The notes under the pieces were generated by a model. That model worked only from the letters and a program-made list of their open reading frames with translations, searched no databases and was not told the origin of the DNA. The translations under genes were made by a program, and so were the position numbers. From Ilumatobacteraceae bacterium (lineage in GTDB: Bacteria; Actinomycetota; Acidimicrobiia; Acidimicrobiales; Ilumatobacteraceae): a DNA stretch of 64,000 bases. The stretch is taken from NCBI GenBank assembly GCA_033344875.1, contig JAWPMO010000001.1, positions 4,117,595 through 4,181,594 on the forward strand, given 5' to 3'. The number at the start of each line of letters is the position of its first letter. Positions within the stretch are counted from its first letter, which is position 1. This document shows positions 47,271 through 64,000 of the stretch, piece by piece.

Positions 47271-47275
47271 GTTGA
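46544..47275 (+). pseudogene. IS30-family transposase, 3' truncated
   Basis: The 243 residues left contain the N-terminal HTH (IATELGRDPSTISREIERNGG), the ECIYQAIY segment and the first part of the DDE domain: GHLEGDLITG with the first catalytic Asp, and TLTWDQGSE with the second. The sequence then leaves the family and stops after two codons at the junction with the IS256-type element. The third catalytic residue (Glu) is lost, so it is inactive. A CGC trinucleotide run (46946-46969) encodes eight or more arginines. Confidence 0.88.
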
Positions 47276-48740: not shown

Positions 48741-48804
48741 GACACCAGAGCCTGAAACGCGTTCAATGACCGCCGAGCCGAGCAACACAAATCAGCTCAC
48801 GGCT

Positions 48805-49501: not shown

Positions 49502-50233
49502 TCACATCAGGGTTGCGCCGCCGTCGACGAGCAGCATCTGCCCAGTGACATATGACGACAGGTCAGACGCGAGGAACAACGACGCATCGCCCATGTCGGC
49601 CGGGTCACCCCATCGACGTAGCGGGATTGACTCCAGCGAGGCTTCATAGACGGCCTCGTCGTAGCGGCTGCGCTCCGTCAGCTTGGTGCTGACCAAGCCG
49701 GGCGCCACGCCATTCACTCTGATGGAGTCGCGAGCCCAAGCGTGCGCGAGAGACTTCGTCAGCGTGACCAGTGCCCCCTTGCTTGCGGCGTACGCGGGTT
49801 GCCCCGGGGTGGCGATAAAACTCGATGTCGAGCCGATCAATACTACCGACCCGGCGGACTTAGAGAGCAGTGGATGGAACGCCGTACACACACTCATCAC
49901 GCCGTTGAGATTGACATCGATCACAGAACGAAAGATGTCCATGGTGTACTCGGCGCGGGAGTAGGCGACGGTGCCGACGCTCACGACGAGCACGTCGAGA
50001 CGATCGAAGGACGCAGCAAGGGCGGTGACCGCAGCGTCGTCGACGATATCGAGTTGGTGGAAGCTCATTCCTCCGAGATCAGTGTCGGCGTACTCATCAG
50101 GTGTCGCCCGCGTGCCGGTGACGCTCACCTCGGCGTCTGCGTCGAGGAATCTGCGCGCGATACCCAGGCCGATGCCGCTTGATCCGCCGGCTACGAGCAC
50201 GCGTCGGCCCATGAGGTCGATTGACACCGTCAT
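49502..50233 (-). CDS. Short-chain dehydrogenase/reductase (SDR)
   Basis: The 243-residue classical SDR has the NAD(P)-binding GGSSGIG (16-22), catalytic Ser in IGSTSSF, Tyr/Lys in YAASKGA and the C-terminal DGGATLM. The usual NNAG motif is replaced by VVSVGT. It oxidises or reduces a hydroxyl/keto group and would suit the 3-hydroxyacyl-CoA or cyclic-alcohol step of the pathway. It is the last complete gene of the leftward operon, following the 92-aa ORF by five bases. Confidence 0.88.
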   Translation of the reverse strand: MTVSIDLMGRRVLVAGGSSGIGLGIARRFLDADAEVSVTGTRATPDEYADTDLGGMSFHQLDIVDDAAVTALAASFDRLDVLVVSVGTVAYSRAEYTMDIFRSVIDVNLNGVMSVCTAFHPLLSKSAGSVVLIGSTSSFIATPGQPAYAASKGALVTLTKSLAHAWARDSIRVNGVAPGLVSTKLTERSRYDEAVYEASLESIPLRRWGDPADMGDASLFLASDLSSYVTGQMLLVDGGATLM

Positions 50234-50238
50234 TGAAG

Positions 50239-50517
50239 TCAGTCTTCGGCGGCCACTGGCGGTTTGGTGTCGTCGGTTGGTGCTGAGCTGACCGCATCGG
50301 GCACACCGAGCACCATGTTGTAGAGGTCTTCATGCTTTGCACTCGGGCAGGGAAGGCGAATGAAGTAGGTCGAGTGACACATCCCGTGGTCGACCGGTCC
50401 GTAGACGTTGTGGCCTCGGTCACGCAATCCCCACCACCTCGCGGGACTCATGCATTGTGTTGCCTCTCGAGAGCGGTTCGTAGTGCAGGACACGACGATT
50501 CCGTGGCGGGTGGTCAT
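50239..50517 (-). CDS. Small protein (92 aa) with partial VOC-like motif
   Basis: The frame starts with an ATGA overlap at the upstream hydrolase stop and ends five bases before the SDR start, so it fits the operon closely. The segment GLRDRGHNVYGPVDHGMCHSTYF resembles the C-terminal half of a VOC-family domain (the GPxDHGxCxSxYF strand pair), but the first half of such a domain is missing and the tail (PTDDTKPPVAAED) is disordered. It may be a truncated VOC gene or a real small protein. No firm function. Confidence 0.5.
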   Translation of the reverse strand: MTTRHGIVVSCTTNRSREATQCMSPARWWGLRDRGHNVYGPVDHGMCHSTYFIRLPCPSAKHEDLYNMVLGVPDAVSSAPTDDTKPPVAAED

Positions 50518-51569
50518 GACAACAGACGGATGATGTCCGCCGCCAGGTGTTCTGGTACGTGGAGGGGTCCGAAGTGGTGCAGATGGTCGTACTGGATGAG
50601 CCGCGCCGATGGCAGTGCCTCAACAAGCGCTGCGGCGTGGTCGGCTGGTCCGGGAGACGTGGTGGCCTTTCCGGCGGCCACCGTGACCTCGGACATCACG
50701 TCAGCGAAGCGGTCGAGGGTCATTCTTACTCCGTCCTCGAACGACGCCGCTTCGTGTTCGGCCCGACACGCGAGGCGAACCGTTCCGTCTGCCAGGTCGC
50801 GAAAACCGAATTGGACGTATTCGGCGAGCGAGTCGGCGCGCAGCGAATTGAGCGGCGCTCGTCCAGCATAGCGATGGAGTGCCTCCGCCCGAGAGTTGAA
50901 GACCTCCCGTCGGTTCCGTGCGGCATCGATCAGGCGCCCCCCGGGGTGGCTGTCGACGGGACCAGCAGGGAATACGATCGGTTCGAAAAGGAAGGCACCT
51001 GAGACGGTTCCAGCTCGCATGGCTTCCAGCAGGAGCACCGAACTCCCACCCATCGAATGGCCGAAGGCGCGCACAGGCCCACCGCCGAGTTTGTCCACAA
51101 CGGCCGACAGATCTTCCGCCATGCGAGACCAGGAGAAGTCACCTGAGTGAGGTGCCTCCGAGTCACCGTGACCCCGGTAGTCGATGGCCCAGACACTGAA
51201 GTGTGACGCGAGCGCGGCTCCGAGTGGTCTGTAGCATCGGCCATGGAAGCCGGTGGCATGGCTGATGACGAGTGGTGGTCCATCACCACCAAGGTGATGC
51301 ATCACGATCGCTGTGCCATCCGCAGATCGGACCATGTGTGCGTTGGGGTCGTCTCGAATTCGCCACTCGGCGGCGTTCAGGTACTCGTTGCCTTCGTGAC
51401 GAACGACATGAACGATCGAGCTGGGCTCAGATTTTTCGATCGAGACCACCCTGTATAGATCGTCGATGTCAGGTAACCCGATCACCGCGTGGGGATACAG
51501 CAGGTCGGCAGTCTGCGACCGGTGGACGATTGTGCCACTTTCGTCATCGAAGAAGATGATCGATTCCAC
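50514..51569 (-). CDS. Alpha/beta hydrolase with N-terminal extension
   Basis: The 351-residue product has an unusual N-terminal part (about 1-75; FFDDESGTIVHRSQTADLLYPH) and then a standard alpha/beta hydrolase: HATGFHGRCYRP oxyanion region, AIDYRGHGDSEAP, nucleophile elbow GHSMGGSS, and the final catalytic His in YDHLHHFGPLH. It may cleave an ester, lactone or C-C bond of a ring-opening product. It is the second gene of the leftward operon, two bases after the first hydrolase. Confidence 0.85.
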   Translation of the reverse strand: MESIIFFDDESGTIVHRSQTADLLYPHAVIGLPDIDDLYRVVSIEKSEPSSIVHVVRHEGNEYLNAAEWRIRDDPNAHMVRSADGTAIVMHHLGGDGPPLVISHATGFHGRCYRPLGAALASHFSVWAIDYRGHGDSEAPHSGDFSWSRMAEDLSAVVDKLGGGPVRAFGHSMGGSSVLLLEAMRAGTVSGAFLFEPIVFPAGPVDSHPGGRLIDAARNRREVFNSRAEALHRYAGRAPLNSLRADSLAEYVQFGFRDLADGTVRLACRAEHEAASFEDGVRMTLDRFADVMSEVTVAAGKATTSPGPADHAAALVEALPSARLIQYDHLHHFGPLHVPEHLAADIIRLLS

Positions 51570-51571
51570 GG

Positions 51572-52348
51572 CTAGCTCCGTTCTCCTGGGCTGTCCACAG
51601 AGTCACAGAATGCGGTGATCATCCCAAGGAGATCCTCCGTGGCCTCTCGATGCGGCCAGTGGTCGACACCGGCGATGCGCTCTAGCTCGACGGCGCCCGA
51701 GACTCTGGCAGCAATGCGCTCGAGTTGCTCGTCGGAGCCGAATCTGTCGAGCACACCTTGAACCGCAAGAACAGGGCACGTCACCGCTGCCAGTTCTGCG
51801 TCCAGACTCCAGTCCACCGATCCAGCAGCAGTCCACACGGCAGCCCAGTTCTCCAGCAGTGCCTCGGGACGGCGATGCTGTCGGCGGAGACTCTCGAGCA
51901 ACTTCCCGTGGTTCGCCATCAACCCGGCGATTTCGTCAATTGCCAGCTGTTCTACGAAGACGTGCGCAGCAATCGACACGATGCCGAGCGGTGCCACTGC
52001 GTCACCGCGGGCGTATGGGTAGGCCAGGGCGATCGAAGCTCCATCACTGTGCCCGACCAGAATCGGCGCGGCTTCGCCGCGTTCGGTGAGCAGTGACGCG
52101 AGCGTTCGAGCTTCGTCGATTAGGAACGTCGTGGGCCAAGGGGCCGGCCGGTCCGGTGACCGTCCATAGCCCAACCTGTCGTACGCGACCACTTTGCGGC
52201 AGGTCGCACGGGCGAGAGCAGTAGGGAACTGACCCCACCCGGCCACCGACCCAAGGCCCTCGTGAAGCAGCACGATGGGGGCGCGCCCCAACGTGCCTGC
52301 CAACTCGAATTCTTCGATGTGGAGCTGAAACCCCTGTTCAGCGTCCAT
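51572..52348 (-). CDS. Alpha/beta hydrolase preceded by a poly-G tract
   Basis: The 258-residue hydrolase has IVLLHEGLGSVAGWGQFP, AYDRLGYGRS, nucleophile GHSDGASIAL and the C-terminal VDHWPHREA catalytic His; the GHSDGA elbow is that of lipase/lactonase-like relatives. It is the first gene of the leftward operon. ATG 52348 is the simplest start. A GTG (52354) and an ATG (52393) lie in frame upstream; the ATG 52393 reading runs through a 14-nt G tract and would be switched on and off by length changes. Confidence 0.83.
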   Translation of the reverse strand: MDAEQGFQLHIEEFELAGTLGRAPIVLLHEGLGSVAGWGQFPTALARATCRKVVAYDRLGYGRSPDRPAPWPTTFLIDEARTLASLLTERGEAAPILVGHSDGASIALAYPYARGDAVAPLGIVSIAAHVFVEQLAIDEIAGLMANHGKLLESLRRQHRRPEALLENWAAVWTAAGSVDWSLDAELAAVTCPVLAVQGVLDRFGSDEQLERIAARVSGAVELERIAGVDHWPHREATEDLLGMITAFCDSVDSPGERS

Positions 52349-52353
52349 ATCCA

Positions 52354-52367
52354 CCCCCCCCCCCCCC
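52354..52367. repeat. Homopolymer of 14 G (minus strand) at the start of the hydrolase gene
   Basis: Fourteen C on the plus strand, read as G in the minus-strand gene, end six bases before its ATG and occupy the ribosome-binding position. Homopolymers of this length are rare and slip during replication. Such tracts drive phase variation in other bacteria. A sequencing or assembly artefact in the exact length is also possible. Confidence 0.9.
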
Positions 52368-52403
52368 GAAAGCTGTTTCGCAAGAGGCCGCATCGGGAAT
52401 TAC

Positions 52404-52458
52404 TTGACGTCGACCCCACAACCCGATTATTCTACCCGCTAGTCGATAGAAAAATCAA
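52404..52458. promoter_or_regulatory. Divergent promoter region with 22-bp inverted-repeat operator
   Basis: The plus strand has TTGACG (52404-52409) and, 17 bp on, TTATTC (52427-52432). The minus strand has TTGATT (complement of 52453-52458) and, 18 bp on, TAGAAT (complement of 52429-52434). The inverted repeat TTCTA-N12-TAGAA (52430-52451) overlaps both promoters, so one repressor could silence both operons. A near copy stands at 60496-60517. Confidence 0.6.
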
Positions 52459-52501
52459 TGATCGACATCATCATCTAGTAGCAGGCAATGAGGGGGCACA
52501 C

Positions 52502-52891
52502 GTGCGTAAAGATGCTGTGGGGAAGGTCGTCTACGAGGCGACACTGAGAGTCGAACCGGTCAAGCTCGCGGAACTCTCTGCCGCCATCGGGACTGAAACG
52601 GCGTCCGAGACCGCTCGGATTGTCCCGTGGTTCGGTGTGACCATAGGTGGAGATCAGCGCTTGGTTGACACCCTGGACATGGATCTCAGTAGAGCACTTC
52701 TGGCTGGCCACCGGTACGACTGGCGCCGGCCCGTCGAGCCGGGCGAGGAAATCCAAGCGCGGGTCACCGTCGATCAGGTTTTCAGCAAGGGTGACAATGA
52801 CTTTGCCGTGTTGACGACCGAGTTCCGCGACGCCGCGAACGAACTTGTGCAGACGCAGACCACAACCTTTATCGAGAGGGGAGTCGCATGA
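52502..52891 (+). CDS. FAS1/MaoC-type dehydratase, N-terminal-domain subunit
   Basis: The 129-residue product matches the N-terminal hot-dog domain of FAS1-like/MaoC dehydratases (HadA/C-type): VGKVVYEATLRVEPVKLAELSAAIG, HRYDWRRPVEPGEEIQARVTV and VLTTEFRDAANELVQTQTTTFIER. This domain lacks the catalytic residues and pairs with an active partner, here the next gene, to hydrate enoyl-CoA or dehydrate 3-hydroxyacyl-CoA. GTG 52502 was chosen for the GAGGGGG ribosome-binding site just before it. It overlaps the partner gene by four bases. Confidence 0.82.
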   Translation: MRKDAVGKVVYEATLRVEPVKLAELSAAIGTETASETARIVPWFGVTIGGDQRLVDTLDMDLSRALLAGHRYDWRRPVEPGEEIQARVTVDQVFSKGDNDFAVLTTEFRDAANELVQTQTTTFIERGVA

Positions 52892-53241
52892 TTGACCGCG
52901 CTACCACCAACGCGATCACGAGGGTCCAGATTGCTCGGTACGCCGGAGCAGTTGGGGACTTCAACCCGATGCACCTCGACGACGAATTCGCCCAAGCGGC
53001 TGGGCTTCCCTCGGTGATCGCTCATGGCCCGCTCACGTTGACACTCGTGATCGATGCCCTCGTGGCGCAACTCGGTGTTGCCCAGCTGAGGAGTTTCGAT
53101 GCACGACTGCGAGCCCCGGTCTTTCCCGGCGATGCTCTCGAGATCGTCTCGATCGACGACGGTCTGGAAGTCCGTAACTCGAGCGGCGGCGTGGTCGCCC
53201 TTGTTCAGCTCGAGACTACGGACGGAGGGTCAGCCCAGTGA
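52888..53241 (+). CDS. MaoC-type (R)-hydratase/dehydratase, catalytic subunit
   Basis: The 117-residue hot-dog protein carries the hydratase-2 motif: RYAGAVGDFNPMHLDDEFA, with catalytic Asp and His (the xxGDxNPxH pattern), and VIAHGPLTLTLVIDAL. It should form a heterodimer with the upstream non-catalytic subunit, as HadB does with HadA/C. It handles 2-enoyl-CoA intermediates in a beta-oxidation-like step. ATGA and GTGA overlaps with both neighbours show tight coupling. Confidence 0.88.
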   Translation: MIDRATTNAITRVQIARYAGAVGDFNPMHLDDEFAQAAGLPSVIAHGPLTLTLVIDALVAQLGVAQLRSFDARLRAPVFPGDALEIVSIDDGLEVRNSSGGVVALVQLETTDGGSAQ

Positions 53242-54029
53242 CCTACGAATTTCTTCTGGAGGAGGTTCGTGAGGATGGGGTTCGTGTGCTCACGCTCAAC
53301 CGGCCGGACAACTTGAACTCGTGGAACACTCAGATGCGTCGGGAGATGGGCCAGGCGATCGGTGCCGCTGCGGTCGACCCTGAACTGAGATGTCTCGTGA
53401 TCGCAGGAGCAGGTCGAGCGTTCTCCGCTGGGGAGGATGTGCGGGGCATGGGGGAGTTGGCCGATATCGGCACCCGTGCGTTCAGAGCGACTGCCCGCGG
53501 TATTCATGATGTCTTCGACACCGTTGAGGCCATGGAGGTACCGGTGATTGCGGCTATCGATGGTGTTGCTGCTGGCGGAGGATTCGAACTCGCTCTGTCG
53601 TGTGACTTCAGGGTGGTTTCGGAAGCCGGGCGGTTCGTTATGCCGGAAGCCAAGGTTGGCCTGATCCCTGGCAGTGGCGGGTGTTCGCGGCTAGTGCGAT
53701 ACATCGGTCTCGGTCGGGCCAAGGAGTTGGTCATGTTGGGTGGCAGGCTCGACGCTCAGCAAGCGCTGCAGCTGGGCCTCGCCACGGAGACATGCCCGCA
53801 GGGCGAGGCCGTCGAGACGGCTGTCGCTCTGGCTGGCCGCATCGGTCAACTTGCCCCGCTTGCGGTCGGCATGGCAAAGCTGGTGCTCAACACCTGTACC
53901 GACGTCGACTCTGAGACTGGTCGCCGGCTTGAACGGCTCGGGCAGAGTATTCTGAAGACGACCGAAGACCATCGGGAAGGGGCGCAAGCCTTCGTCGAGA
54001 AGCGCCCGCCCGAGTGGCGGGCGCGTTGA
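53238..54029 (+). CDS. Enoyl-CoA hydratase/isomerase (crotonase family)
   Basis: The 263-residue crotonase-fold protein has the oxyanion hole AGAGRAFSAGEDVRGMGE and IDGVAAGGGFELALSCDFRV, and the acid/base region PEAKVGLIPGSGGCSRL. A Gly-Ser pair (PGSGG) stands where hydratases have the first Glu, so isomerase, hydrolase or ring-cleaving activity is possible. The C-terminal tail KRPPEWRAR is typical of CoA-binding crotonases. It forms part of the rightward operon, coupled to the MaoC gene by GTGA. Confidence 0.88.
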   Translation: MTYEFLLEEVREDGVRVLTLNRPDNLNSWNTQMRREMGQAIGAAAVDPELRCLVIAGAGRAFSAGEDVRGMGELADIGTRAFRATARGIHDVFDTVEAMEVPVIAAIDGVAAGGGFELALSCDFRVVSEAGRFVMPEAKVGLIPGSGGCSRLVRYIGLGRAKELVMLGGRLDAQQALQLGLATETCPQGEAVETAVALAGRIGQLAPLAVGMAKLVLNTCTDVDSETGRRLERLGQSILKTTEDHREGAQAFVEKRPPEWRAR

Positions 54030-54063
54030 TGGGGCGGAGATGAGGGGAATGGGGACTCAGCAA

Positions 54064-55422
54064 ATGAATGACGATCAATTCTGGAACCGATGCACGCAGA
54101 CTGCGCCGCGTGAGGTGCTTGATGCGATGCATCTCACAAAGATCAGGCACCTCGTGGGCTGGGCATATGATCACTCGCCGCTCCATCGGCGCATCTACGA
54201 CGAGGCCGGAATCAAACCTGCCGACATCCAAACCTGGGACGATTACCACCACCGTTTGCCCTTCACTGACAAGCCCGACTACGTTGCCGACCAAGAGGCG
54301 AGCGGCACTTACGGTGGCCTGGCGCTAGGCGCCGAGCAATGGCAGCAGTACTTCCACACGACGGGAACTACCGGTCACTTCCTGAACGAGGTCTTCTCGC
54401 GCTACGAGCAGAACAAGGCCGGATCACAGTACTGCTACGGCATGTGGGACCACGGCCTGCGCCCGGGCGATTCGGCGTATTTCTGCTTCGACTTCGGCAT
54501 GTGGATCGGATTGTGGAGCTATTACTGGGGAGTACGTAACTTGGGCATGACTGTTGTTTCGGGCGGAGGTGTCTCCGGCGTGGAGCGGGTCCGTCAGATA
54601 CTCGATCGTCGGCCCACGATGGTCATCGGAACACCCACCTATCTCCTTCACCTTGCTGAGATAGCAGATCGAGAGGGCCTGGACATCAGGAAAGCTGGCG
54701 TCCGGGTGCTGGCCGGAGGTGGTGAGCCCGGGTTGTCGGTGCCCGTTACCCGGGACCGGCTTCAAGAGGCATGGGGCGTCAAGGACCTCTACGACGCATA
54801 CGGCGTCGGAGAGGCGCTGTTCATCGGCCAGTCCTGTCAGGAGTGGGCTGGCGGAGTCCACGTCATCGAAGATGTCTGCCACTCCTATTCGGTCGACCCG
54901 AGCACTGGTGATCCAGTAACGGACGCAGCGCAAGTCGGCGAGCACGTCATCACCAGCTACACACACTTTGCTCAACCCTTCATCAAGTACCGCACTCACG
55001 ACCTTGTCCGCATCGATGAGGCACCAGATCACGGCTGTGGTTGGAGCTGGAAACACATGCCGGGCGTTGTCCTCGGACGCACCGACTTCATGGTCACTAT
55101 CCGAGGCGTCAACGTCTATCCGACGGCGGTCGAGAACCTGATCGGTGAGGTGCGCGGCCTGAGCAACATCTATGAGTTGCACATCAGCCGTCGAGACGGC
55201 ATGGACAGGATGCTGGTAAAGGTCGAAGCCGTAGAAGGTGGTGCCGATCTCGACGTGCTCAGTACCGAGCTCGCAAGTCACCTCCGCAACAATCTCGGTG
55301 TGCGTCTCGAGACCGAGGTTCAGCAAACCGGCACGATGCCTCGCTACGAGTTGAAGACTAAGCGCATTTTCGACAGTCGTTCTGAGAAGGACCGTCCGGA
55401 GTTCAGTCTGGGAAGGGCATGA
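54064..55422 (+). CDS. Phenylacetate-CoA-ligase-like (PaaK-type) acyl-CoA ligase
   Basis: The 452-residue adenylate-forming ligase is of the PaaK group: FWNRCTQTAPREVLDAMHLTKIRHLVGWAYDHSPLHRRIYDEAGI at the start, P-loop FHTTGTTGH, DAYGVGEALFIGQSC adenine region, and KYRTHDLVRIDE with a C-terminal GRTDFMVTIRGVNVYPTAVE. It converts a carboxylic acid plus ATP and CoA to acyl-CoA and AMP, the likely entry reaction of the pathway. ATG 54064 has GGGG at good distance; in-frame ATGs at 54040 and 54049 are alternatives. Confidence 0.88.
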   Translation: MNDDQFWNRCTQTAPREVLDAMHLTKIRHLVGWAYDHSPLHRRIYDEAGIKPADIQTWDDYHHRLPFTDKPDYVADQEASGTYGGLALGAEQWQQYFHTTGTTGHFLNEVFSRYEQNKAGSQYCYGMWDHGLRPGDSAYFCFDFGMWIGLWSYYWGVRNLGMTVVSGGGVSGVERVRQILDRRPTMVIGTPTYLLHLAEIADREGLDIRKAGVRVLAGGGEPGLSVPVTRDRLQEAWGVKDLYDAYGVGEALFIGQSCQEWAGGVHVIEDVCHSYSVDPSTGDPVTDAAQVGEHVITSYTHFAQPFIKYRTHDLVRIDEAPDHGCGWSWKHMPGVVLGRTDFMVTIRGVNVYPTAVENLIGEVRGLSNIYELHISRRDGMDRMLVKVEAVEGGADLDVLSTELASHLRNNLGVRLETEVQQTGTMPRYELKTKRIFDSRSEKDRPEFSLGRA

Positions 55423-55631
55423 CCGTGACCAATGATGCAGTTACTAGTTTTGGGGACGACGTCGACGCACAACTGGAGCGCCTAGCGGCCCTGCGCGGCC
55501 AGCTCCGCGAGGAACGTGCTGCTGCGGTGTCGCCGGCAGTTGCGAGGGCGTTGGAACTGGCGGAGATTGAGCTCTTTCTCGGCCTGACGTGTCTTGGCTA
55601 CTCCGACGAACTCTTCCCACATGAGAAATGA
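55419..55631 (+). CDS. Small helical protein of unknown function (70 aa)
   Basis: The start overlaps the ligase stop (ATGA) and the stop overlaps the start of the luciferase-like gene (ATGA), so it is a real, tightly coupled gene. The product is a helix-rich soluble protein: DDVDAQLERLAALRGQLREE, then AVARALELAEIELFLGLTCLG. It could be a subunit or chaperone of one of its neighbours. I do not recognise the family. Confidence 0.7.
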   Translation: MTVTNDAVTSFGDDVDAQLERLAALRGQLREERAAAVSPAVARALELAEIELFLGLTCLGYSDELFPHEK

Positions 55632-56671
55632 CTCCACCAAAGTCAGCGCCTGGGCTCGGGATCTACGTGCTGCCAGGTCGGACGACCGATCCGGCAGCAG
55701 GACTCGACGAGGCCCGTGAGGCGGAGCGAGCTGGCTTCGGCGCGGTCTATGTCAGCGAACGCCTCGATCTTAAGGAGGCAGCGGTCACCTGCGGTGGCCT
55801 CGTCGCGGTCACTGAACGCGTAACGGTGGGCACGGCGCTGATCCATCAGGGCACGCGCCATCCCCTGACGATCGCTGCCATGTCGGCGACGCTGCAAACC
55901 ATGAGTGGCGGACGGTTTGTCCTCGGCATAGGGCGAGGCCTCGGTGCGCTCACGCCGTCGCTGGGAGTGCCCAGATCGACGCTTGCCAGCATCGAGCACC
56001 TCGTCACGACGCTGCGTCGGCTCTGGGCCGGTGATCGCATCACGGAGACAGGTCCCGCCGGAAGTTTCCGGGGGATGCGTTTCGCCGACATCCCCGAGTC
56101 GGCTCCCCCAGTGCTATTCGGCACGATTGGACCACGGGGTCTGGAGTTAGCTGGCCGGGAATTCGACGGTGTGATCCTGCACCCGTTCCTTACCACCGAA
56201 GCGGTGAACAGGTCAGTGACCATCGTGAGGGAGAGCGCCGAGCGTGCGGGCCGAGACCCCTCGTCGCTCCACGTGATCACGACGCTCGTGGCCAGTCCCG
56301 ACCTGCCGTCCGAACGGACCGATTTGGCCGTGCGTTCACGAGCGGTCAGCTATTTCCAGGTGCGTGGGCTAGGCGAGCAGCTCGTCGAGTGGAACGGCTG
56401 GGACCCCGCCGTTCTCGATGCACTCCGCAATCATCCGACCTTGAGCGGGCACGGCATTGCAGATACCTCGCTGACGCGTGACGGCCTGGTTGCGGCGTCG
56501 GAGAGCCTTCCGGACGAGTGGTTCGAGGCTGCCGCCGCCGTAGGCCCGGCTCGACTGTGCGTGGAACGGGGTCATCAGTATCTTGCTGCGGGCGCTGACG
56601 AGGTGCTCATCCACGGAGCGTCACCTGCCGAGGCGGCCGCCATGGTGCCGCTTTGGGCTACGGAACCGTGA
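55628..56671 (+). CDS. Luciferase-like monooxygenase/F420-dependent oxidoreductase
   Basis: The 347-residue TIM-barrel protein shows the LLM pattern: GIYVLPGRTTDPAAGLDEAREAERAGFGAVYVSERLD, LTIAAMSATLQTMSGGRFVLGIGRG (cofactor phosphate region) and a long GRDPSSLHVITTLVASP segment. It resembles actinobacterial members thought to use F420 (TIGR03857-like). It could reduce or oxidise a CoA-bound intermediate. It is embedded in the operon by ATGA and GTGA overlaps. Confidence 0.85.
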   Translation: MTPPKSAPGLGIYVLPGRTTDPAAGLDEAREAERAGFGAVYVSERLDLKEAAVTCGGLVAVTERVTVGTALIHQGTRHPLTIAAMSATLQTMSGGRFVLGIGRGLGALTPSLGVPRSTLASIEHLVTTLRRLWAGDRITETGPAGSFRGMRFADIPESAPPVLFGTIGPRGLELAGREFDGVILHPFLTTEAVNRSVTIVRESAERAGRDPSSLHVITTLVASPDLPSERTDLAVRSRAVSYFQVRGLGEQLVEWNGWDPAVLDALRNHPTLSGHGIADTSLTRDGLVAASESLPDEWFEAAAAVGPARLCVERGHQYLAAGADEVLIHGASPAEAAAMVPLWATEP

Positions 56672-57666
56672 TCGGCTCAGCGGCAGACCACTCGATTGCG
56701 GCGACCCTTCCAAGGGTGGTCGAAGCGGATATCGGTACAACGACGCTGCACCATCTCCAGCGGCTAAAGGGCGGCTACTCGCGGCAGATGTGGGCTGTCG
56801 ATCTGCTGGACATTTCGGATCGGATCCACGCGTTCGTGTTGTGCATGGACACGCCAGAAGGCGTTGTGCGGGAGGGTGAGCAGACGCTTGATCGGGCAAG
56901 CGAAGGGCGATTGCTGCGGGCCCTCCATGCTTCTGGATTGCCAGTACCCGACGCCTTGGCGTGGGGTGACGCGGATAGTGCTTTGGGGCGACCCTTCGTT
57001 CTAATGGAGCGCATCGCTGGTTCGACAGCGGTAGGTCCGCTCGCGCGAGATCGATATTTCGTCGAGCGCCATGATCTTCTCGCTCACCAAATGGCCGACA
57101 TGCTTGCGTCGATACACGCTGCCCACGTCCCAGCGGGATTTCTTGACGCTCCGGTTTCGCCTGCCGCCGACGAGCTGGAACGGTGGCGGCAGGCCGCCAC
57201 TGCGACGCGCGATGCGCAGCTTCCGATCTTCGGCGCCGTCTTCGAATGGTTGGATCGGAACCGGCCCACCAGCAGCGGGAGACCGGTCCTTGTACACGGT
57301 GACTTCCGAACTGGCAACTTGATCTACGACCACACCGGCTTTGTGTCCGTTCTAGATTGGGAGATGGCACACCTGGGCGATGCGCTCGAGGATGTGGCCT
57401 GGGCGCAACTCATCTGCTGGCAGCTCGGCACCGGCCGAGTCGGCGGGCTCGTCGACCGCAACACCTGGGCGAAACAGTACGAGCGAGCATCGGGTCGCCG
57501 GATCGACGGCGGGTCCCTTAGGTTCTGGGAGGTGCTTGGGTCCTTAAAGATGTCGATCCTTGCGTGGCGTGCAATCCAAGTCACGGCCGACGGCAAGGAG
57601 CGGTCGCTTCTCGAACAGCTCCGCGCCGACCTTGCCCGCGAACTGGCAACGCAAGTGGCCGGCTAG
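56668..57666 (+). CDS. APH-like kinase in the catabolic operon
   Basis: The 332-residue product has the phosphotransferase fold: LKGGYSRQMWAVDL nucleotide loop, VLHGDFRTGN-like catalytic loop (LVHGDFRTGNLIYD) and VSVLDWEMAHLGDALEDVAW metal-binding Asp. As in ACAD10/11 and levulinate catabolism, it may phosphorylate a hydroxyacyl group so that it can be eliminated. GTG 56668 overlaps the preceding stop (GTGA). It is the last gene of the rightward operon; a second protein of the family lies at 12396-13418. Confidence 0.8.
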   Translation: MIGSAADHSIAATLPRVVEADIGTTTLHHLQRLKGGYSRQMWAVDLLDISDRIHAFVLCMDTPEGVVREGEQTLDRASEGRLLRALHASGLPVPDALAWGDADSALGRPFVLMERIAGSTAVGPLARDRYFVERHDLLAHQMADMLASIHAAHVPAGFLDAPVSPAADELERWRQAATATRDAQLPIFGAVFEWLDRNRPTSSGRPVLVHGDFRTGNLIYDHTGFVSVLDWEMAHLGDALEDVAWAQLICWQLGTGRVGGLVDRNTWAKQYERASGRRIDGGSLRFWEVLGSLKMSILAWRAIQVTADGKERSLLEQLRADLARELATQVAG

Positions 57667-58061
57667 CCCACGTCTGTTCAGTCAGCAGGGTGCTGATATC
57701 ACATCGTGCGTCGATGGTGCGCGTCGTATGTAGCTCTCAGGACCGAGTCGACGATGACACGGATCCCTCGCATCGGCCTGCTTTATCGAGACCGATTAGA
57801 CGCTTGATGCGCATCGTCGGCGATAGCGCCACTACGGACTTGGTTTCTTGGCCCTGACCCGATTTCTGCCGTTCCGGCCGACGATACGAGAACGCTGAGC
57901 CAGACCGACCGGTGACAGCGGTGTAGTTTCTTTGATGTGCCTCGTGCGGAATGGATGAAGTCGGAGTTGCAGGGCAGTCCGTCAGGCTGGGTGTTTGTCT
58001 GGACGTCGACCCGAATTCGGTTCCGTTATTCCAACTCTCGAACTCGGATCTGTGACGCAAA
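57667..58061. other. Intergenic region before the TetR gene
   Basis: 395 bp with no convincing ORF. It contains ACCGGTGACAG (57908-57918), which is close to the ACCGGTTGACAG at the promoter of the PaaA-like gene, and the palindrome CCGAATTCGG near 58011-58020. One of these may be the site at which the TetR protein controls its own gene. No clear terminator was found after the kinase gene. Confidence 0.4.
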
Positions 58062-58733
58062 ATGAGCAGTGAGCAGAGGTCAAGCACTTCGGCAGGGCCA
58101 ATCGCTCGCAAGCGGGGCCGGCCTCGGCACGAGGAACCTAGCCAGGAGTACGAGACGAAGCGGCGCGAGGTTGTCAGCGTCGCGAGTGAGGTCTTCCGAG
58201 TGCAGGGCTACGACGCCGGCACCCTCGAGGACGTCGCCGCAGCAATGAACCTGCGAAAAGCGAGTCTCTACTACTACGTCAAGTCAAAGGCAGACCTGCT
58301 GCGCCTGATTTTTGATCGTGCCATCGACAGATCGCTGGAGCAGATCGAGGAGTACCTAGCCATTGAGGATCCACGCGATCGGCTTGAAGCGCTGATCCGT
58401 CATCAGGCGGTCACGGTTGCCAAGGATCCGGCCCTGTTCGCAGTGTTCTTCGACCACCGCGCAGGCCTGAACGATGACGATATGGCGGACATCACCGCTA
58501 AGGAGAGGCGGTACCTCCGCCACTTCATCGAAGCGGTCGAAGACGCTATGGACGCCAACGTGCTGCCGAAGGCTGACTCGCGCATGATGGCGGCTACTTT
58601 GATCGGAATGTCCAGCTGGGTCTACAAATGGATGGATCCAGTTCGCGATGATCCCCTGGTCTTCGCAGACCTGTGTGTTCAGTTGATCCTTCGACCGAGG
58701 GGCAACGATGAATACCGCAAGCGAACCGGGTGA
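58062..58733 (+). CDS. TetR-family transcriptional regulator
   Basis: The 223-residue product has a TetR HTH (about 35-82: VVSVASEVFRVQGYDAGTLEDVAAAMNLRKASLYYYVKSKADLL) and a long helical ligand-binding domain. The N-terminal RKRGRPRHEE is typical. TetR proteins of such catabolic clusters usually sense a CoA thioester. It stands between the two halves of the cluster and is the best candidate to bind the repeated TTCTA-N12-TAGAA or the TGACAGA/TCTGTCA palindromes. Confidence 0.9.
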   Translation: MSSEQRSSTSAGPIARKRGRPRHEEPSQEYETKRREVVSVASEVFRVQGYDAGTLEDVAAAMNLRKASLYYYVKSKADLLRLIFDRAIDRSLEQIEEYLAIEDPRDRLEALIRHQAVTVAKDPALFAVFFDHRAGLNDDDMADITAKERRYLRHFIEAVEDAMDANVLPKADSRMMAATLIGMSSWVYKWMDPVRDDPLVFADLCVQLILRPRGNDEYRKRTG

Positions 58734-58737
58734 CATC

Positions 58738-58759
58738 GCCGGCCCACCGTTGGGTCGGC
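58738..58759 (+). terminator. Terminator hairpin after the TetR gene
   Basis: GCCGGCCCA-CCGT-TGGGTCGGC forms a 9-bp stem (one G-T pair), five bases after the TetR stop. It separates that gene from the PaaA-like operon about 240 bp further on. Confidence 0.65.
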
Positions 58760-58945
58760 GCTGTCGCGGCGAGTTGCGGTCAAGAGGACGCACCACAGGC
58801 GTCAGACTGCGCGATCACGCTCTCCCACGGTCGACGTATTGATCGGCACGACCGCACGACGATGGATCTCCCGGGGCGGGTTCGGTAGCCGCCGCCGTCG
58901 TCGCGGCTGGCGAACCTACACCTCGGAATTTGTTCGACTCACCGG

Positions 58946-58974
58946 TTGACAGAAATAAGTCTGTCACGTAGTGT
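58946..58974 (+). promoter_or_regulatory. Promoter with palindromic operator before the PaaA-like gene
   Basis: A near-perfect -35 TTGACA (58946-58951) is followed after 17 bp by TAGTGT (58969-58974). The palindrome TGACAGA-AATAAG-TCTGTCA (58947-58966) covers the -35 and spacer, an ideal place for a TetR repressor. AAAGGGAGG (58982-58990) gives the ribosome-binding site. Confidence 0.7.
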
Positions 58975-58996
58975 TGCTTCGAAAGGGAGGTATGAC

Positions 58997-59716
58997 ATGA
59001 GTGTCACCATGGAACGACGGGTGTATCAAGAAGGCGATACGGACATCCCCGAAGAGTTCACAGAACTGCTTACCCGGATGCTGACGCATCATCTTGAGAA
59101 CTCGACGAATCCGCACTACACCCAGCTCTTGAGCCACCTGTGGGACCGTTGCATGACGCTGGCTCCGGATGAGAAGCTCAAAACAACGTTTGCCAAGCTC
59201 ATGCAGCAGGAAGTTGAGCACGGGGTCATCACGTCAAGGATTCTCGCCGGCCTCGGCGTCGGACCGATCGATGCGCCGATCCGCCAGTATCTTTTCCACT
59301 TGCCGATCGACAGCTTCTGCGACCTATCGATGTTCCATGCCCTCGGCGATCGCGTCGGCTGCTACATCGGCGAAACGTGGCACGGCGTGCCGTACGAGCC
59401 GCTGCTATCCGTCGCCGACCGGCTCCATAAGGACGAGGTGTTTCACGCTACGTTCGGTCTTAGCAACCTGCGACGGGTTTGTTCCACTCCCGAGGGACTG
59501 GCTGAGGCGAATGAGAAGATCAAGATCTGGTGGCCAGCAGCGCTCGATATGTTCGGACGCTCGGACTCAGATTTTTCCGACGCGTACGTGCGCTGGGGAC
59601 TGCGCGAGCTGAACAACGAGGACCTCCGCCAGCAGTACATCGCCGAGACGCGTCCTCTGCTCGAAGAACTCGGCATCACCGTCCCGGCCGATACCGACAA
59701 CAGGCGATTCCTTTAG
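58997..59716 (+). CDS. PaaA-like ferritin-fold protein (phenylacetyl-CoA epoxidase family)
   Basis: The 239-residue helical protein resembles the PaaA/PaaC family of ring-1,2-phenylacetyl-CoA epoxidase. Di-iron ligands are suggested by QQEVEHG and KDEVFHAT (the ExxH pairs) with Glu residues in HHLENS and GETWHG. In the classical system PaaA needs PaaB, C and E; none of these is recognisable here, only two small unknown genes follow. It may be the oxygenase of this pathway with a different partner set, or a di-iron protein of new function. ATG 58997 sits at good distance from GGGAGG. Confidence 0.75.
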   Translation: MSVTMERRVYQEGDTDIPEEFTELLTRMLTHHLENSTNPHYTQLLSHLWDRCMTLAPDEKLKTTFAKLMQQEVEHGVITSRILAGLGVGPIDAPIRQYLFHLPIDSFCDLSMFHALGDRVGCYIGETWHGVPYEPLLSVADRLHKDEVFHATFGLSNLRRVCSTPEGLAEANEKIKIWWPAALDMFGRSDSDFSDAYVRWGLRELNNEDLRQQYIAETRPLLEELGITVPADTDNRRFL

Positions 59717-59748
59717 TCGGGATCCAGTCGGCGGCGGGTGACTGACCT

Positions 59749-60051
59749 ATGGCAGCCGAGATGGAAGACAAGTCAACCGGGGGACTCGCATCTGGTCGTA
59801 AGCCGGTCGTCAAGTTCACGAGACACAGTGAACATGCGCTGGCCATGGAGGTCGGACTCGGAGACTATCGCGAAGTTTTTTTCGTGTTGATCGGTGAGCG
59901 CAGCGTCGCGATCAGTTCCTACGACGAAACGGATCCGACTCATCGCGAGCCGACGGTTTTCGTCTTCCCTAAGCCTTATCAATGGTCTGTCGACCTCGAC
60001 GACGACGAATTGATGGTCCAGATCTGGCAGGCGACCGGCGTGCAACGGTAA
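59749..60051 (+). CDS. Small protein of unknown function in the PaaA-like operon (100 aa)
   Basis: This soluble protein, mostly strands, follows the PaaA-like gene by 32 bp. Recognisable features are few: KFTRHSEHALAMEVG, EVFFVLIGERSVAISSYDETDP and VFVFPKPYQWSVDLDDDELMVQIWQA. Its size fits a small accessory subunit like PaaB, but I see no convincing similarity. The codon pattern looks coding. Function unknown. Confidence 0.65.
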   Translation: MAAEMEDKSTGGLASGRKPVVKFTRHSEHALAMEVGLGDYREVFFVLIGERSVAISSYDETDPTHREPTVFVFPKPYQWSVDLDDDELMVQIWQATGVQR

Positions 60052-60072
60052 AGGTGACGTGGGGGCAGTGGA

Positions 60073-60396
60073 ATGACAGAAGATGAAGAAATCTCAATCG
60101 ACACTTTCACCGTGCGAGGTCATCGCAACGGCAGCCTTGTGCACGTCACGTGGACAAGCGGTGCGCTAAGCGGAGATCCTCCGACGGTCGACGCCGTTGA
60201 GGTGGAGGCCGAAATCGCTTCGCTCAGCGGTAAGGACCGCATGACGAAGCGCGCGACCTTGACTGCGGGGAGCGATCCACTCGCCGATGTGCTGAGCGCC
60301 GCCCGACTAGTTTGCCATGTGATCGATCGCGTTGCGGAAATCTCTCCGGCTGAACTCGAGACCGCACTGCAGGCCGAATCGATCCCACTCGACTGA
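60073..60396 (+). CDS. Small protein of unknown function in the PaaA-like operon (107 aa)
   Basis: The 107-residue product has a strand-rich first half (TFTVRGHRNGSLVHVTWTSG) and a helical second half (LADVLSAARLVCHVIDRVAEISPAELETALQ). It follows the preceding small gene by 21 bp. It could be another subunit of the PaaA-like complex. I do not recognise it. Confidence 0.65.
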   Translation: MTEDEEISIDTFTVRGHRNGSLVHVTWTSGALSGDPPTVDAVEVEAEIASLSGKDRMTKRATLTAGSDPLADVLSAARLVCHVIDRVAEISPAELETALQAESIPLD

Positions 60397-60467
60397 GTGT
60401 CGTTCGCCGCGTCGCTCATACTCAGCCCGTAATCGTCGCCCGGTCCTCGCTGAAGTCGAACCAACTC

Positions 60468-60517
60468 TTGACGCGTAGCTCGTTTCTCGATATCTTTCTA
60501 CCTTGCAGTCGATAGAA
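60468..60517 (+). promoter_or_regulatory. Promoter with shared 22-bp operator before the Liv operon
   Basis: TTGACG (60468-60473), 17 bp, TATCTT (60491-60496), then the inverted repeat TTCTA-N12-TAGAA (60496-60517). The repeat agrees with that at 52430-52451 at 18 of 22 positions, and both follow a TTGACG hexamer (26 or 28 bp away). The gene start at 60615 leaves a leader of about 100 bp. Confidence 0.6.
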
Positions 60518-60614: not shown

Positions 60615-63392
60615 ATGACCCAGGCAATTGTTGGTGGGCTTACTTCTGGAGCCATTTACGCCCTGCTCGGCCTTGGAATCGTGATCGTTTACGGGGTGTC
60701 ACGATTCGTGAACCTCGCCCAAGGCGAGTACTACGTGTACGGCGCGCTTCTCTCCACAACGCTGGTAGCCGCCGATGTCCCCATTTGGATCAGCGCGTTG
60801 CTCGCCATCGGCGCCGTAGCGATCATGTCCGCAGCCCTCGAGCGCATTGTCTTCTCGCGACTCGTTGACGCCCCACATGCCGCACAACTGCTGGCGGGGA
60901 TCGGCGTCGCCTTCGCCCTGGCCGGGGCTGCCCGCGTCTTCTGGGGCACACAGGAACGAACGCTGCCCGCCTTTTGGGATAGAGACCCAATCGAGGTTCT
61001 CGGCGCGCGTATCAGCATGCAGGTCCTCGCCCTCTTGGCGACACTCTGTCTGCTGTGGCTTCTACTGTGGCTCTTGCTTCATCGAACGATGCTCGGAACG
61101 ATGATGCGTGCCGTCGCGACGTTGTCGGGCCGGGCAGGGCTGCTCTCGGTCAACGTCACGATGGTCACGACCGTGGCCTTTGCCCTGGCCGGCGCCGCAG
61201 GCGCCGCAGCTGGCATCGTCGTGACCCCGCTGGTCTTCGTCACGTACCACTCCGGTCTGCTACTCACGATCTACGGCTTTATCGCCGCCGCGTTCGGTGG
61301 GATGCGTTCGATCCGGGGCACCGTCGCTGGCGGGCTGCTCATTGGCGTTCTCGAGTCACTGATGGCGTACTACGGCGATTCCGCCCTGAAGACGCCAATG
61401 GCATTCGTCCTGCTCGTACTGATCCTCGTCTACCGAGCATCACGGGAGAGCGATAGCGCAGGCTTGCTCTCGGCGGTCCGGTCGGCCAGGACTCGCGCCC
61501 AGTCGATGGCGGCACTGCCGCCTGTCGCTCCACCAGCCATGCTGCTCCGACTCACCGGCCTCCGAGCTAACGCGATCGGCGTCGGTCTGGTCGCCCTCTT
61601 CGCTGTTGCAGGACCCGTCGTACTGTCACCCTACTGGGTCTCGCTGTTGAGCTTCGTCGGAGTCTTTGTGATCGTCGGCATCGGCCTCGACCTGCTCCTC
61701 GGCTACACCGGCCAACTCTCGCTCGGACAGACCGCCTTCATGGGTGTCTCAGCCTACATGGTTGCACTCAGCTCGGAATGGTGGGGCCTGTCCGCATGGC
61801 CCGCGGCGCTGATCGCCGTTGCGTTCACGGTCTCGTTGGCAGCAGGGCTCGGAGCTGTCGTGCTCCGTCTGCGCAACTACTACTTCACACTGGCCACGCT
61901 CGCGATTGCGATCGCGGCCGAGGCTCTTGTCAGCGGTCTGCCTGCACAGCTCGGTGGTCCCTCCGGACTGCGCGTCCGCACGACTCTGTCCTTGCCCGGA
62001 TTCGTGCTCGACACGTCGAGTCGGCTGTTCACCGCGACGTGGATAACGGTCTGTGTCGCGTTGGTCGTGGCATTGCGCCTAACGAGATCTCGTGTGGGCC
62101 TGGCAATGAAGGCCGTCGGCGCCGATGAAGCGCTCGCTTCGGCAGCGGCGATCACGCCGTTCACCACCAAGCTCAAGATCTTCATCGTCTCGGGTGTCTT
62201 TGCGGGGGTGGCTGGGGTGCTGTACGCCCACACCCTGATGTACGTCTCGCCTAGCTCACTAGGACTGCTCGGAGGCTTCGATGCGGTCGTCGGGCTCCTG
62301 CTAGGAGGCTTTGGCACCGTGTGGGGCGCAGTCGTGGGTATCCCAATCATCCGGCTCGCCCCGCAGTTCATCGAACGCTTCGCGGAGTATCAGGAGCTGA
62401 TTTACGGTCTACTCGTCGTAAGTCTCGTCGTGCTGTTGCCCGACGGCCTTGTCGGTGCATCGTCGAAGGCGTATGGACGCGTACGCCGTGGAACATCGGC
62501 GCCGTCCGACGTGGCGGACACTGGCCGCGCAACAGCCGCAGTATCGCACGCAGGCCCATCGGACAGGGAGGCGCCTGTGCGGAAGTCCGCCAGCAACGGC
62601 CAAGTCGTATCCCTTGAGGTTGGGGAAGCCGCCCAAACCACCGGTCCCGCTCTGCGGGCTGACGGAGTGAGCAAGAAATTTGGAGGAATTCGAGCGCTCA
62701 GTGACGTCCACCTGGCGGTGAGTCCGGGACGGATCGTCGGCCTGATAGGGCCTAACGGAGCGGGCAAGAGCACGTTCCTCAGCGCACTCGCCGGGAGCTT
62801 ACAGCCCGACAGCGGGCAAGTCACGATGTCGGGTCAGGACATTACCGGGTTCTCCGCCGATGCCCGTGCCCGCTACGGACTCGCAAGGACGTTCCAGCTC
62901 CCGCGCATCCCCCATCAAATGACCGTGCTCGACGTCGCAATGCTCGGCACCTATCGCCGTGGGCATGTCGGCGTGTTTCGCTCGGTGCTCGGGGCTACCT
63001 CGGGCGAACAGCGGGCGATGGAAGCAGCGGCGATGGAGGCGCTTGAACTGACCGGTATCGCTCATCTGAGGCACCTCGAAGCGGATCGGCTAAGCACGGG
63101 TGAGCAGAAGATGCTCGAACTGGCCCGAGCGCTAGCCAGTGCCCCGCAGGTACTTCTCGCCGACGAACCGGCCGGGGGACTCTTCGACGATGAAGTCGCC
63201 CGGCTCGAGGAACTACTCCGGAAGCTTGCTTCTCAGGGCCTCAGCATCGTGCTCGTCGAGCACCACATGGAGTTGGTGATGAGCGCGTGCTCCGAGATCG
63301 TTGTGCTCAACGAGGGGCATGTGATCGCGATCGGCGCCCCGAAGGTCGTCCGGTCCAACCAGGAGGTGCTCGATGCCTATCTCGGTGTCTGA
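60615..63392 (+). CDS. Liv-type ABC importer: fused LivH-LivM permeases and LivG ATPase
   Basis: The 925-residue product joins three subunits that are usually separate. Residues 1-290 are a LivH-type permease (AIYALLGLGIVIVYGVSRFVNLAQGE), about 310-620 a LivM-type permease (GIGLDLLLGYTGQLSLGQTAFMG), and about 680-925 a LivG-type ATPase (Walker A GPNGAGKST, Walker B VLLADEPAGGL, H-loop LVEHH; signature LSTGEQ instead of LSGGQ). Such systems import branched-chain amino acids, but in catabolic clusters they often take up aromatic or other carboxylic acids. No binding protein is visible in the window. Confidence 0.92.
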   Translation: MTQAIVGGLTSGAIYALLGLGIVIVYGVSRFVNLAQGEYYVYGALLSTTLVAADVPIWISALLAIGAVAIMSAALERIVFSRLVDAPHAAQLLAGIGVAFALAGAARVFWGTQERTLPAFWDRDPIEVLGARISMQVLALLATLCLLWLLLWLLLHRTMLGTMMRAVATLSGRAGLLSVNVTMVTTVAFALAGAAGAAAGIVVTPLVFVTYHSGLLLTIYGFIAAAFGGMRSIRGTVAGGLLIGVLESLMAYYGDSALKTPMAFVLLVLILVYRASRESDSAGLLSAVRSARTRAQSMAALPPVAPPAMLLRLTGLRANAIGVGLVALFAVAGPVVLSPYWVSLLSFVGVFVIVGIGLDLLLGYTGQLSLGQTAFMGVSAYMVALSSEWWGLSAWPAALIAVAFTVSLAAGLGAVVLRLRNYYFTLATLAIAIAAEALVSGLPAQLGGPSGLRVRTTLSLPGFVLDTSSRLFTATWITVCVALVVALRLTRSRVGLAMKAVGADEALASAAAITPFTTKLKIFIVSGVFAGVAGVLYAHTLMYVSPSSLGLLGGFDAVVGLLLGGFGTVWGAVVGIPIIRLAPQFIERFAEYQELIYGLLVVSLVVLLPDGLVGASSKAYGRVRRGTSAPSDVADTGRATAAVSHAGPSDREAPVRKSASNGQVVSLEVGEAAQTTGPALRADGVSKKFGGIRALSDVHLAVSPGRIVGLIGPNGAGKSTFLSALAGSLQPDSGQVTMSGQDITGFSADARARYGLARTFQLPRIPHQMTVLDVAMLGTYRRGHVGVFRSVLGATSGEQRAMEAAAMEALELTGIAHLRHLEADRLSTGEQKMLELARALASAPQVLLADEPAGGLFDDEVARLEELLRKLASQGLSIVLVEHHMELVMSACSEIVVLNEGHVIAIGAPKVVRSNQEVLDAYLGV

Positions 63393-64000
63393 CGATGGCC
63401 GACTCGACGTCACAGGGCTCACAGCGGGCTATGGCCAGGTCACGGTCGTGCGCGACGTGAACCTGCGGGTGGATCGCGGTGAGTTCGTCTGTCTCCTCGG
63501 CGCCAATGGCGTGGGAAAGACGACGCTCCTTCGGGCCATCGTGGGCGACGCCGACGTCAGTAACGGGAGTGTCACCTTCGATGGCCGTCAACTGACCGGA
63601 ATCTCTTCGCACCGGGTGACCCGGGCCGGGATGGCGATCGTTCCCGAGGGGCGGGGTCTGGTCAGCGACATCTCTGTTCGAGACAACCTCCTGCTCGGAT
63701 CAATTCCTTGGAACCGGAAATACTCGTCGGCTGAGCTCTCCAGCTCGATGGACGAGATCTTCGATCGATTTCCCATACTTGGACAGCGCCGGTACCAACT
63801 CGCAGGTCATCTGTCGGGTGGCGAGCAACAGATGCTCGCGATCGGACGTGCGCTGATGTCTCGCCCGCGACTTCTGGTGTTGGATGAGCCATCGCTTGGA
63901 CTTGCGCCGCTCCTCGTCCGACAGGTCTTCGACGATCTGGCCGCAGCTAACCGGGACGGATTGACAATTCTCGTTGCAGAACAGAACGCCGCAGCGGCAC
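63373..64000 (+). CDS. LivF-type ABC transporter ATP-binding protein (partial, runs off the window)
   Basis: The reading frame starts at ATG 63373 with AGGAGG seven bases upstream, overlaps the end of the fused permease/ATPase gene by 20 bp and is open to the last base. The 209 codons show Walker A GANGVGKTT, the IVPEGRGL segment typical of LivF, signature LSGGEQQ and Walker B LLVLDEPSLGL. It is the second ATPase of the importer. Perhaps 25 residues are missing at the C-terminus. Confidence 0.93.
   Translation, partial: MPISVSDDGRLDVTGLTAGYGQVTVVRDVNLRVDRGEFVCLLGANGVGKTTLLRAIVGDADVSNGSVTFDGRQLTGISSHRVTRAGMAIVPEGRGLVSDISVRDNLLLGSIPWNRKYSSAELSSSMDEIFDRFPILGQRRYQLAGHLSGGEQQMLAIGRALMSRPRLLVLDEPSLGLAPLLVRQVFDDLAAANRDGLTILVAEQNAAAA

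Follow-up and report, generated by a model that had tools for sequence, protein, structure and literature searches.

Candidate TetR-family operators shared by uptake and breakdown operons on a composite transposon of an Ilumatobacteraceae bacterium

The closest worked-out model for the DNA element described here is PaaR of Burkholderia cenocepacia (BCAL0210), a TetR-type regulator. When it is disrupted by insertion, the genes are expressed whether or not phenylacetate is present, and its inverted repeat, ACCGACCGGTCGGT, lies between the -35 and -10 boxes and is necessary for negative control (PMC2770484). The repeat, given as ACCGACCGGTCGGT(T), is found in several separate promoters (PMC2770484, PMC9493321), and PaaR is listed as recognising phenylacetyl-coenzyme A (CoA) (PMC4424350; see also PMC9493321). 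A TetR-type PaaR also regulates paa genes in an actinobacterium, Corynebacterium glutamicum (PMC9493321), and in Actinomycetes the dominant regulator is PaaR according to a phenylacetate-pathway survey of 2026, whose main text names neither Pseudonocardia nor Frankia (PMC13186573). MbdR of Azoarcus sp. CIB is a TetR repressor of an aromatic CoA pathway whose inducer is the first CoA thioester (PMC4424350), and TTHB023/PfmR of Thermus thermophilus recognises the site TACCGACCGNTNGGTN, with sites mapped to fatty-acid biosynthesis genes (PMC7022988). Here we describe a 22-bp palindrome that recurs in a 64,000-nucleotide stretch of the genome of an Ilumatobacteraceae bacterium (contig JAWPMO010000001.1, positions 4,117,595 to 4,181,594; hereafter, the window), in front of operons for the breakdown and uptake of what are probably CoA-linked, aromatic acids. 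The palindrome is very probably a real on/off operator for one family of repressor proteins. We put at about 0.8 the probability that its copies are operators of a TetR subfamily akin to PaaR/PfmR, through which uptake and breakdown would be repressed together.

The original prediction had held that TTCTA-N12-TAGAA stands twice in the window, with 18 of 22 positions shared, and both copies are there with that degree of identity (operators 1 and 2; Table 1), the palindrome being imperfect in that C6 opposes A17. Each lies behind a TTGACG hexamer as proposed, starting 26 bases (operator 1) and 28 bases (operator 2) on from the first base of the hexamer, and the minus-strand promoter TTGATT-N18-TAGAAT that was said to run over operator 1 is also present; all of these promoter-like boxes are consensus matches, not mapped starts. 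The prediction that two copies would be unlikely by chance also held, as the pattern TTCTACCNNNNAGTCGATAGAA, allowing up to three mismatches, matched twice in the window, compared to a mean of 0.01 matches in 100 shuffles, none of which reached two. In the whole genome (4,968,626 bases) the same pattern found the same two places (one for the backward-pattern control), and TTCTA-N12-TAGAA without mismatches occurred at operators 1 and 2 only (control, one place). We thus rejected a chance match or a genome-wide repeat on the basis of the shuffles and the genome-wide counts, and the search for copies in unrelated places left the prediction standing, with the strict and degenerate patterns confined to the cluster when unmismatched. 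In a second genome of the genus (G005), operator 1 matches at 21 of 22 positions; the one change falls in the central spacer, and the surrounding stretch aligns at 88%. Operator 2 is unchanged there and says nothing about constraint, because the stretch around it is 99.9% identical.

What the original prediction overlooked was a third, weaker site, operator 3, in front of the paaA-like operon. A degenerate pattern spanning all three sites matched exactly three places genome-wide without mismatches, all of them in the cluster, and three further places elsewhere with one mismatch (backward control, one). The same position was also picked by a matrix built from this genome’s sites, operator 1 of G005, and three similar sites of another genome (G098), and sites like operator 3 stand behind tetR or before paaA in five other loci (L052, L053, L055, L057, and L058). 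Since the sites cover either the -10 box and start region or the -35 box, their anatomy fits a repressor. The paaA-like promoter also holds a perfect inverted repeat between its -35 and -10 boxes, TGACAGA-N6-TCTGTCA at 58947-58966, whose unmismatched copy is unique in the genome. As a further operator this repeat is unproven, and it is absent from the similar promoters of L052, L053, L055, and L057.

A scan with an alignment of five TetRs yielded 52 loci, 34 of which (L052-L085) carry relatives at no less than 36% identity. These family loci span Acidimicrobiales, Frankia, Pseudonocardia, Chloroflexi, and others, and many hold homologs of this cluster. Unseeded palindromic expectation maximization on 19 of their promoter regions, which were selected following an initial inspection of the hits and excluded both the window and the sister genome, gave motif 1, TTCTACCGACnnGTCGGTAGAA, with a log-likelihood of 174.8 (500 starts) versus 35.7 to 46.6 for six resampled sets that preserved the base transitions (150 starts per set). 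The three best separate places of this motif in the left-out window were 52430 (26.5 bits), 58933 (22.9 bits), and 60496 (17.9 bits), the starts of operators 1, 3, and 2. When the search was repeated with regions set by gene homology alone, it returned a nearly identical motif 2, tTCnaCCGACtaGTCGGtnGAa, whose best places in the window were operator 2 (22.6 bits) and operator 1 (17.8 bits), followed by a place overlapping operator 3 (16.1 bits when shifted by 4, and 11.3 bits, hence weaker, at operator 3 itself). Of 56 regions upstream of paaA, maoC1, tetR, and transporter homologs, 27 exceeded 12 bits with motif 2, versus 2 of 65 regions upstream of other genes, a count weakened by divergent regions having been entered twice and by Frankia rows that are near-copies. 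Places above 17 bits for motif 1 were found in 22 of the 34 family loci, in none of these loci when read backwards, and once in 313,588 bases of distant, AT-rich loci (L086-L102). Coordinate control by a TetR-type protein is well supported, given that TetRs of this subfamily co-occur with the palindrome, often before homologous operons.

Two Rhodococcus plasmids provided a held-out test, as their loci were fetched later through the PaaA-like protein, which at E 1e-20 matched 2 of 72,556 plasmid records (Rhodococcus pseudokoreensis and R. jostii RHA1 pRHL1). In both 30.7-kb loci, which score alike and are not independent, the best motif place (24.1 bits) falls in the tetR-paaA interval, immediately before paaA, with next-best places of 9.6 bits (R. 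pseudokoreensis) and 12.7 bits (11.5 and 17.3 bits with the second motif). A second R. pseudokoreensis locus, about 37 kb off on the same plasmid, has its best place (26.2 bits; next non-overlapping place, 7.5 bits) directly upstream of maoC-maoC-ech-paaK. The R. pseudokoreensis arrangement is the same as that in the window, with two separated operons and one operator sequence. In the Pseudonocardia locus L070, maoC-maoC-ech-paaK-transporter-llm-aph-tetR are all on one strand with a single operator in front.

The cluster has two candidate repressors. TetR1 has the N-terminal TetR helix-turn-helix and ligand-binding C-terminal domain of a TetR/AcrR protein, and among NCBIfam regulators (FasR, KstR, FadR, and others) 17 models matched it, none at its cut-off. 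TetR2, a close paralog (58-59% identical), is encoded at G000:C1:4183197-4183847 of this genome (65603-66253 in window numbering), 1.6 kb beyond the window edge, after a periplasmic-binding-protein gene (PF13458) that itself lies behind the transporter genes; a GC-rich hairpin without a T run stands between the binding-protein gene and tetR2 (L033:7087-7198). The next match to TetR1 in the genome falls to E = 4e-9. One subfamily TetR was found at E 1e-40 in each of the 12 other genomes examined, and with two loci in the bin BP_132 (L075 and L077) and two matches in G494, TetR pairs are not confined to this genus.

Several observations weigh against joint repression by one TetR, or narrow it. 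The original prediction favored the TetR at 58062 as the one repressor of uptake and breakdown. Although TetR-type joint control is supported, this protein cannot be singled out, as the recognition-helix core RKASLYYY is common to TetR1 and TetR2. Joint control of uptake is also backed by fewer genomes than that of breakdown, being seen here, in G005, in L070, and less clearly in Frankia, and of 15 genomes of relatives, one holds the same fused transporter at E 1e-150. Autoregulation would commonly place an operator ahead of tetR1, but no strong site is found there. With motif 1, operator 2 is by itself close to the 17-bit level, and with motif 2 the window place 2625 reaches 14.8 bits. Twelve of the 34 family loci, some on contigs that end early, lack a place above 17 bits, and such a place was present in 7 of the 18 loci outside training. 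Per-base enrichment is modest, about fourfold: the family loci give 28 places above 17 bits over 544,808 bases, and 23 control loci from the same order, taken around other TetRs, give 1 over 76,550 bases. We also dropped motif likelihood in promoter versus internal-gene sets as evidence; the internal set held a conserved coding motif with the higher value (251 versus 230), so only enrichment counts. The motif by itself is not rare, and the weight is carried by its position before homologous operons.

Of the other explanations, we give most room to a division of labor between the paralogs, in which TetR2 is the true repressor of operators 1 and 2, autoregulated via operator 2, and TetR1 serves the paaA promoter only; we regard this as possible, if doubtful. 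The tetR2 gene does lie downstream of operator 2, as the last gene in the row of transporter and binding-protein genes. Moreover, the operators beside TetR1-clade genes (L052, L055, L057, and Frankia) are closer to operator 3 than to operators 1 and 2, and TetR1 groups with the proteins of these loci while TetR2 is their sister (clade support, 99/98). However, the identical helix cores speak against such a division, the special right half of operator 3 is explained by its -35 hexamer, and the 12 genomes that show one TetR (which BP_132 and G494 do not) include some with the operator before both paaA and maoC. The hairpin upstream of tetR2 also counts against this reading.

It is improbable that an unrelated regulator binds the palindrome with TetR as a bystander. 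FCD-domain and helix-turn-helix regulators also lie within several kilobases on the R. pseudokoreensis plasmid, and most loci were found via TetR, but the Rhodococcus loci found via PaaA still carry one, and the palindrome core matches the PaaR and TTHB023/PfmR operators. Activation rather than repression, as by FasR, seems a shade less credible again: FasR is the best NCBIfam match of TetR1, yet at 41 bits it is far under the cut-off of 330, and sites over -10/-35-like boxes and the start region are in a repressor’s place. Least probable by far is that the two copies arose by chance or duplication and have no regulatory role. Operators 1 and 2 do have a run of 11 bases in common on one side, but the shuffles never held two matches, and both operators are recovered by an independent motif built from other genomes.

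Under joint repression by a TetR-type protein, the mechanism that we infer, including binding, repression, the acting paralog, and the inducer, would run as follows. When substrate is lacking, a TetR dimer (TetR1, TetR2, or both) would occupy the -10/start region at operators 1 and 2 and the -35 box at operator 3, excluding RNA polymerase and shutting off the divergent genes for hydrolases and dehydrogenase, the maoC-maoC-ech-CoA ligase run, the operon of the paaA-like monooxygenase, and that of the ATP-binding cassette (ABC) transporter. Acid that entered the cell would be converted by the PaaK-like ligase to its CoA thioester, and this thioester, or a near product, would free the promoters of repressor, such that uptake and breakdown are induced together. 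By analogy with known systems, we propose that the inducer is the aryl- or acyl-CoA made by this ligase. Three operators, two candidate repressors, and a defined gene set would turn the two-copy repeat into a regulon open to testing, and the operator offers a handle for finding more genes of a PaaA-type CoA pathway.

All three operators and both TetR genes are carried by a 21.8-kb composite transposon. Two copies of one Mutator-type insertion sequence flank the cargo, the left one in the window (G000:C1:4164864-4166452) and the right one outside it (G000:C1:4185066-4186654; L033:9067-10655), identical over 1589 bases and in the same orientation; no other full-length copy was found in the genome. 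Their outer flanks share a single 9-bp target repeat, GGCTCCGAA; joining the flanks with one copy of this repeat yields an open frame across the joint, extending the open reading frame (ORF) 46544-47275, and by eye the interrupted gene looks like a transposase gene. A complete regulon on one mobile unit would allow uptake and breakdown to move along with their control. The cargo is present in G005, where identity is 94% across the catabolic part but 99.9% across the transporter half and the rest. At its catabolic edge G005 has the same insertion sequence (98% over 114 bases), and at the other edge the contig continues into unlike sequence before the right-copy position, so that the same transposon is not proved there. 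The identity shift in G005 (L042 and L051) falls near window position 57670, where two of its contigs meet, and may reflect mosaicism, rearrangement, or the assembly. Outside the transposon, a 1094-amino-acid ORF on the minus strand (41885-45169) resembles, by eye only, a conjugative relaxase/helicase of the TraA type.

Most genes of the cluster could be placed in families (Table 1). The nearest solved relatives of the PaaK-like ligase are 2-hydroxyisobutyryl-CoA synthetase and then phenylacetate-CoA ligases, and those of the transporter binding protein are, we presume, mostly aromatic-acid binders; the ligase and the binding protein thus disagree, and we claim no substrate from them. Homologs of the two small proteins after the paaA-like gene stand behind paaA in Pseudonocardia and Rhodococcus, and the two are possible monooxygenase partners. 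The gene run after the Rhodococcus paaA includes a PDR/VanB-type oxidoreductase, which would make a fitting electron donor. The genes scanned behind the three sites, to which the search for paa genes was limited, include a single PaaA-like protein and none further of PaaA/PaaC type, and these genes do not amount to the full phenylacetyl-CoA pathway (PaaABCE and the rest) that PaaR would control.

Table 1. Features of the regulon and its surroundings, in window coordinates
Feature	Position	Strand	Remarks
Left copy, Mutator-type insertion sequence	47270-48858	+	PF00872; 1589 bp
Short-chain dehydrogenase	49502-50233	-	PF13561/PF00106
Alpha/beta hydrolase 1	50514-51569	-	PF12697
Alpha/beta hydrolase 2	51572-52393	-	PF12697; first gene of divergent operon
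Promoter-like TTGACG-N18-TATTCT, maoC operon	52404-52433	+	consensus match
Promoter-like TTGATT-N18-TAGAAT, divergent hydrolase operon	52429-52458	-	consensus match
Operator 1	52430-52451		TTCTACCCGCTAGTCGATAGAA; overlaps both divergent promoters
MaoC/FAS1-type dehydratase-like protein 1	52502-52891	+	PF13452
MaoC-like dehydratase 2	52888-53241	+	PF01575
Enoyl-CoA hydratase/isomerase	53238-54029	+	PF00378
PaaK-like CoA ligase	54040-55422	+	TIGR02155, 203 bits, under cut-off 646
LLM class F420-dependent oxidoreductase	55628-56671	+	TIGR03857 family, 462 bits, over cut-off 218
APH-type phosphotransferase family protein	56653-57666	+	PF01636
TetR1, candidate repressor	58062-58733	+	PF00440 and PF17932 above cut-offs
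Operator 3	58933-58954		TTCGACTCACCGGTTGACAGAA; contains -35 TTGACA of paaA-like operon; weaker site
Promoter-like TTGACA-N17-TAGTGT, paaA-like operon	58946-58974	+	read by eye; not listed by promoter scan
PaaA-like di-iron monooxygenase	58997-59716	+	PF05138; E-x-x-H motifs EVEH, ETWH, EVFH; nearest solved, PaaA 3pvr
Conserved small protein	59749-60051	+	no Pfam or NCBIfam family
Conserved small protein	60073-60396	+	no Pfam or NCBIfam family
Promoter-like TTGACG-N17-TATCTT, transporter operon	60468-60496	+	consensus match
Operator 2	60496-60517		TTCTACCTTGCAGTCGATAGAA; directly behind -10 of transporter operon
Fused permease-permease-ATPase, branched-chain-amino-acid-type ABC transporter	60615-63392	+	
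Second transporter ATPase	63373-64000	+	gene continues to 64212

TetR and operator of this kind are also found ahead of benzoyl-CoA-reductase-like genes in other Actinobacteria. Upstream of a bcrC-like gene, the motif scored 14.8 to 19.6 bits in L061, L062, L063, L065, L066, L067, and L081 (L062 and L067 were in training, and L061, L063, and L081 are near-copies) and only 7.8 and 10.1 bits in L060 and L069, and no motif place was found upstream of this gene in L059. In G098 (L034/L065) a TetR lies near boxB and boxC (NCBIfam, above cut-off), beside benzoyl-CoA-reductase-like subunits that score under cut-off. Within L034 (5578-13268), from an uncultured actinobacterium, these genes stand side by side with operator-like sites between and beside them. 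The Chloroflexi bin L059 combines, around one TetR, a bcr-like cluster and a paaA-like cluster that has an operator. We tentatively suggest that one TetR-operator pair might govern attack on aryl-CoA esters both with and without oxygen in Actinobacteria and some Chloroflexi, controlling boxB/boxC and benzoyl-CoA-reductase-like operons in some lineages and a lone-PaaA/MaoC/PaaK-like pathway elsewhere, here with the whole regulon carried by a composite transposon. If so, the shared switch would imply that the lone-PaaA pathway also acts on benzoyl-CoA or a close aryl-CoA, and an operator before benzoyl-CoA-reductase-like genes would tie the PaaA-type pathway to aromatic degradation.

Searches of open-licence PubMed Central text found no paper on this regulon, and among the bacterial regulator papers listed the core strings occurred in those on PaaR and TTHB023 only. 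The core ACCGAC..GTCGGT in a promoter, which marks the PaaR/PfmR-like class of operators, is clear in the family motif and partial in this genome, whose own sites are degenerate in the core. MbdR is similar in having several palindromic operators over promoters, but its operator is ATAC-N10-GTAT, and we liken it by description. The same applies to PaaR of C. glutamicum, whose motif, ACCG...CGGT, has the spacing seen here. TTHB023/PfmR has the same operator core; chain 3vpr, which we take to be PfmR, matches the TetR profile at 7.4e-23, although the protein similarity is only distant and the TTHB023/PfmR sites lie at fatty-acid biosynthesis genes. Compared to PaaR of B. cenocepacia, the operator here is longer, with conserved TTCTA/TAGAA arms, and the cluster pairs a PaaA-like oxygenase with a transporter and shows no PaaC-like gene, yet both systems would place CoA-dependent catabolism under a TetR repressor that acts at a palindrome with the core ACCGAC..GTCGGT.

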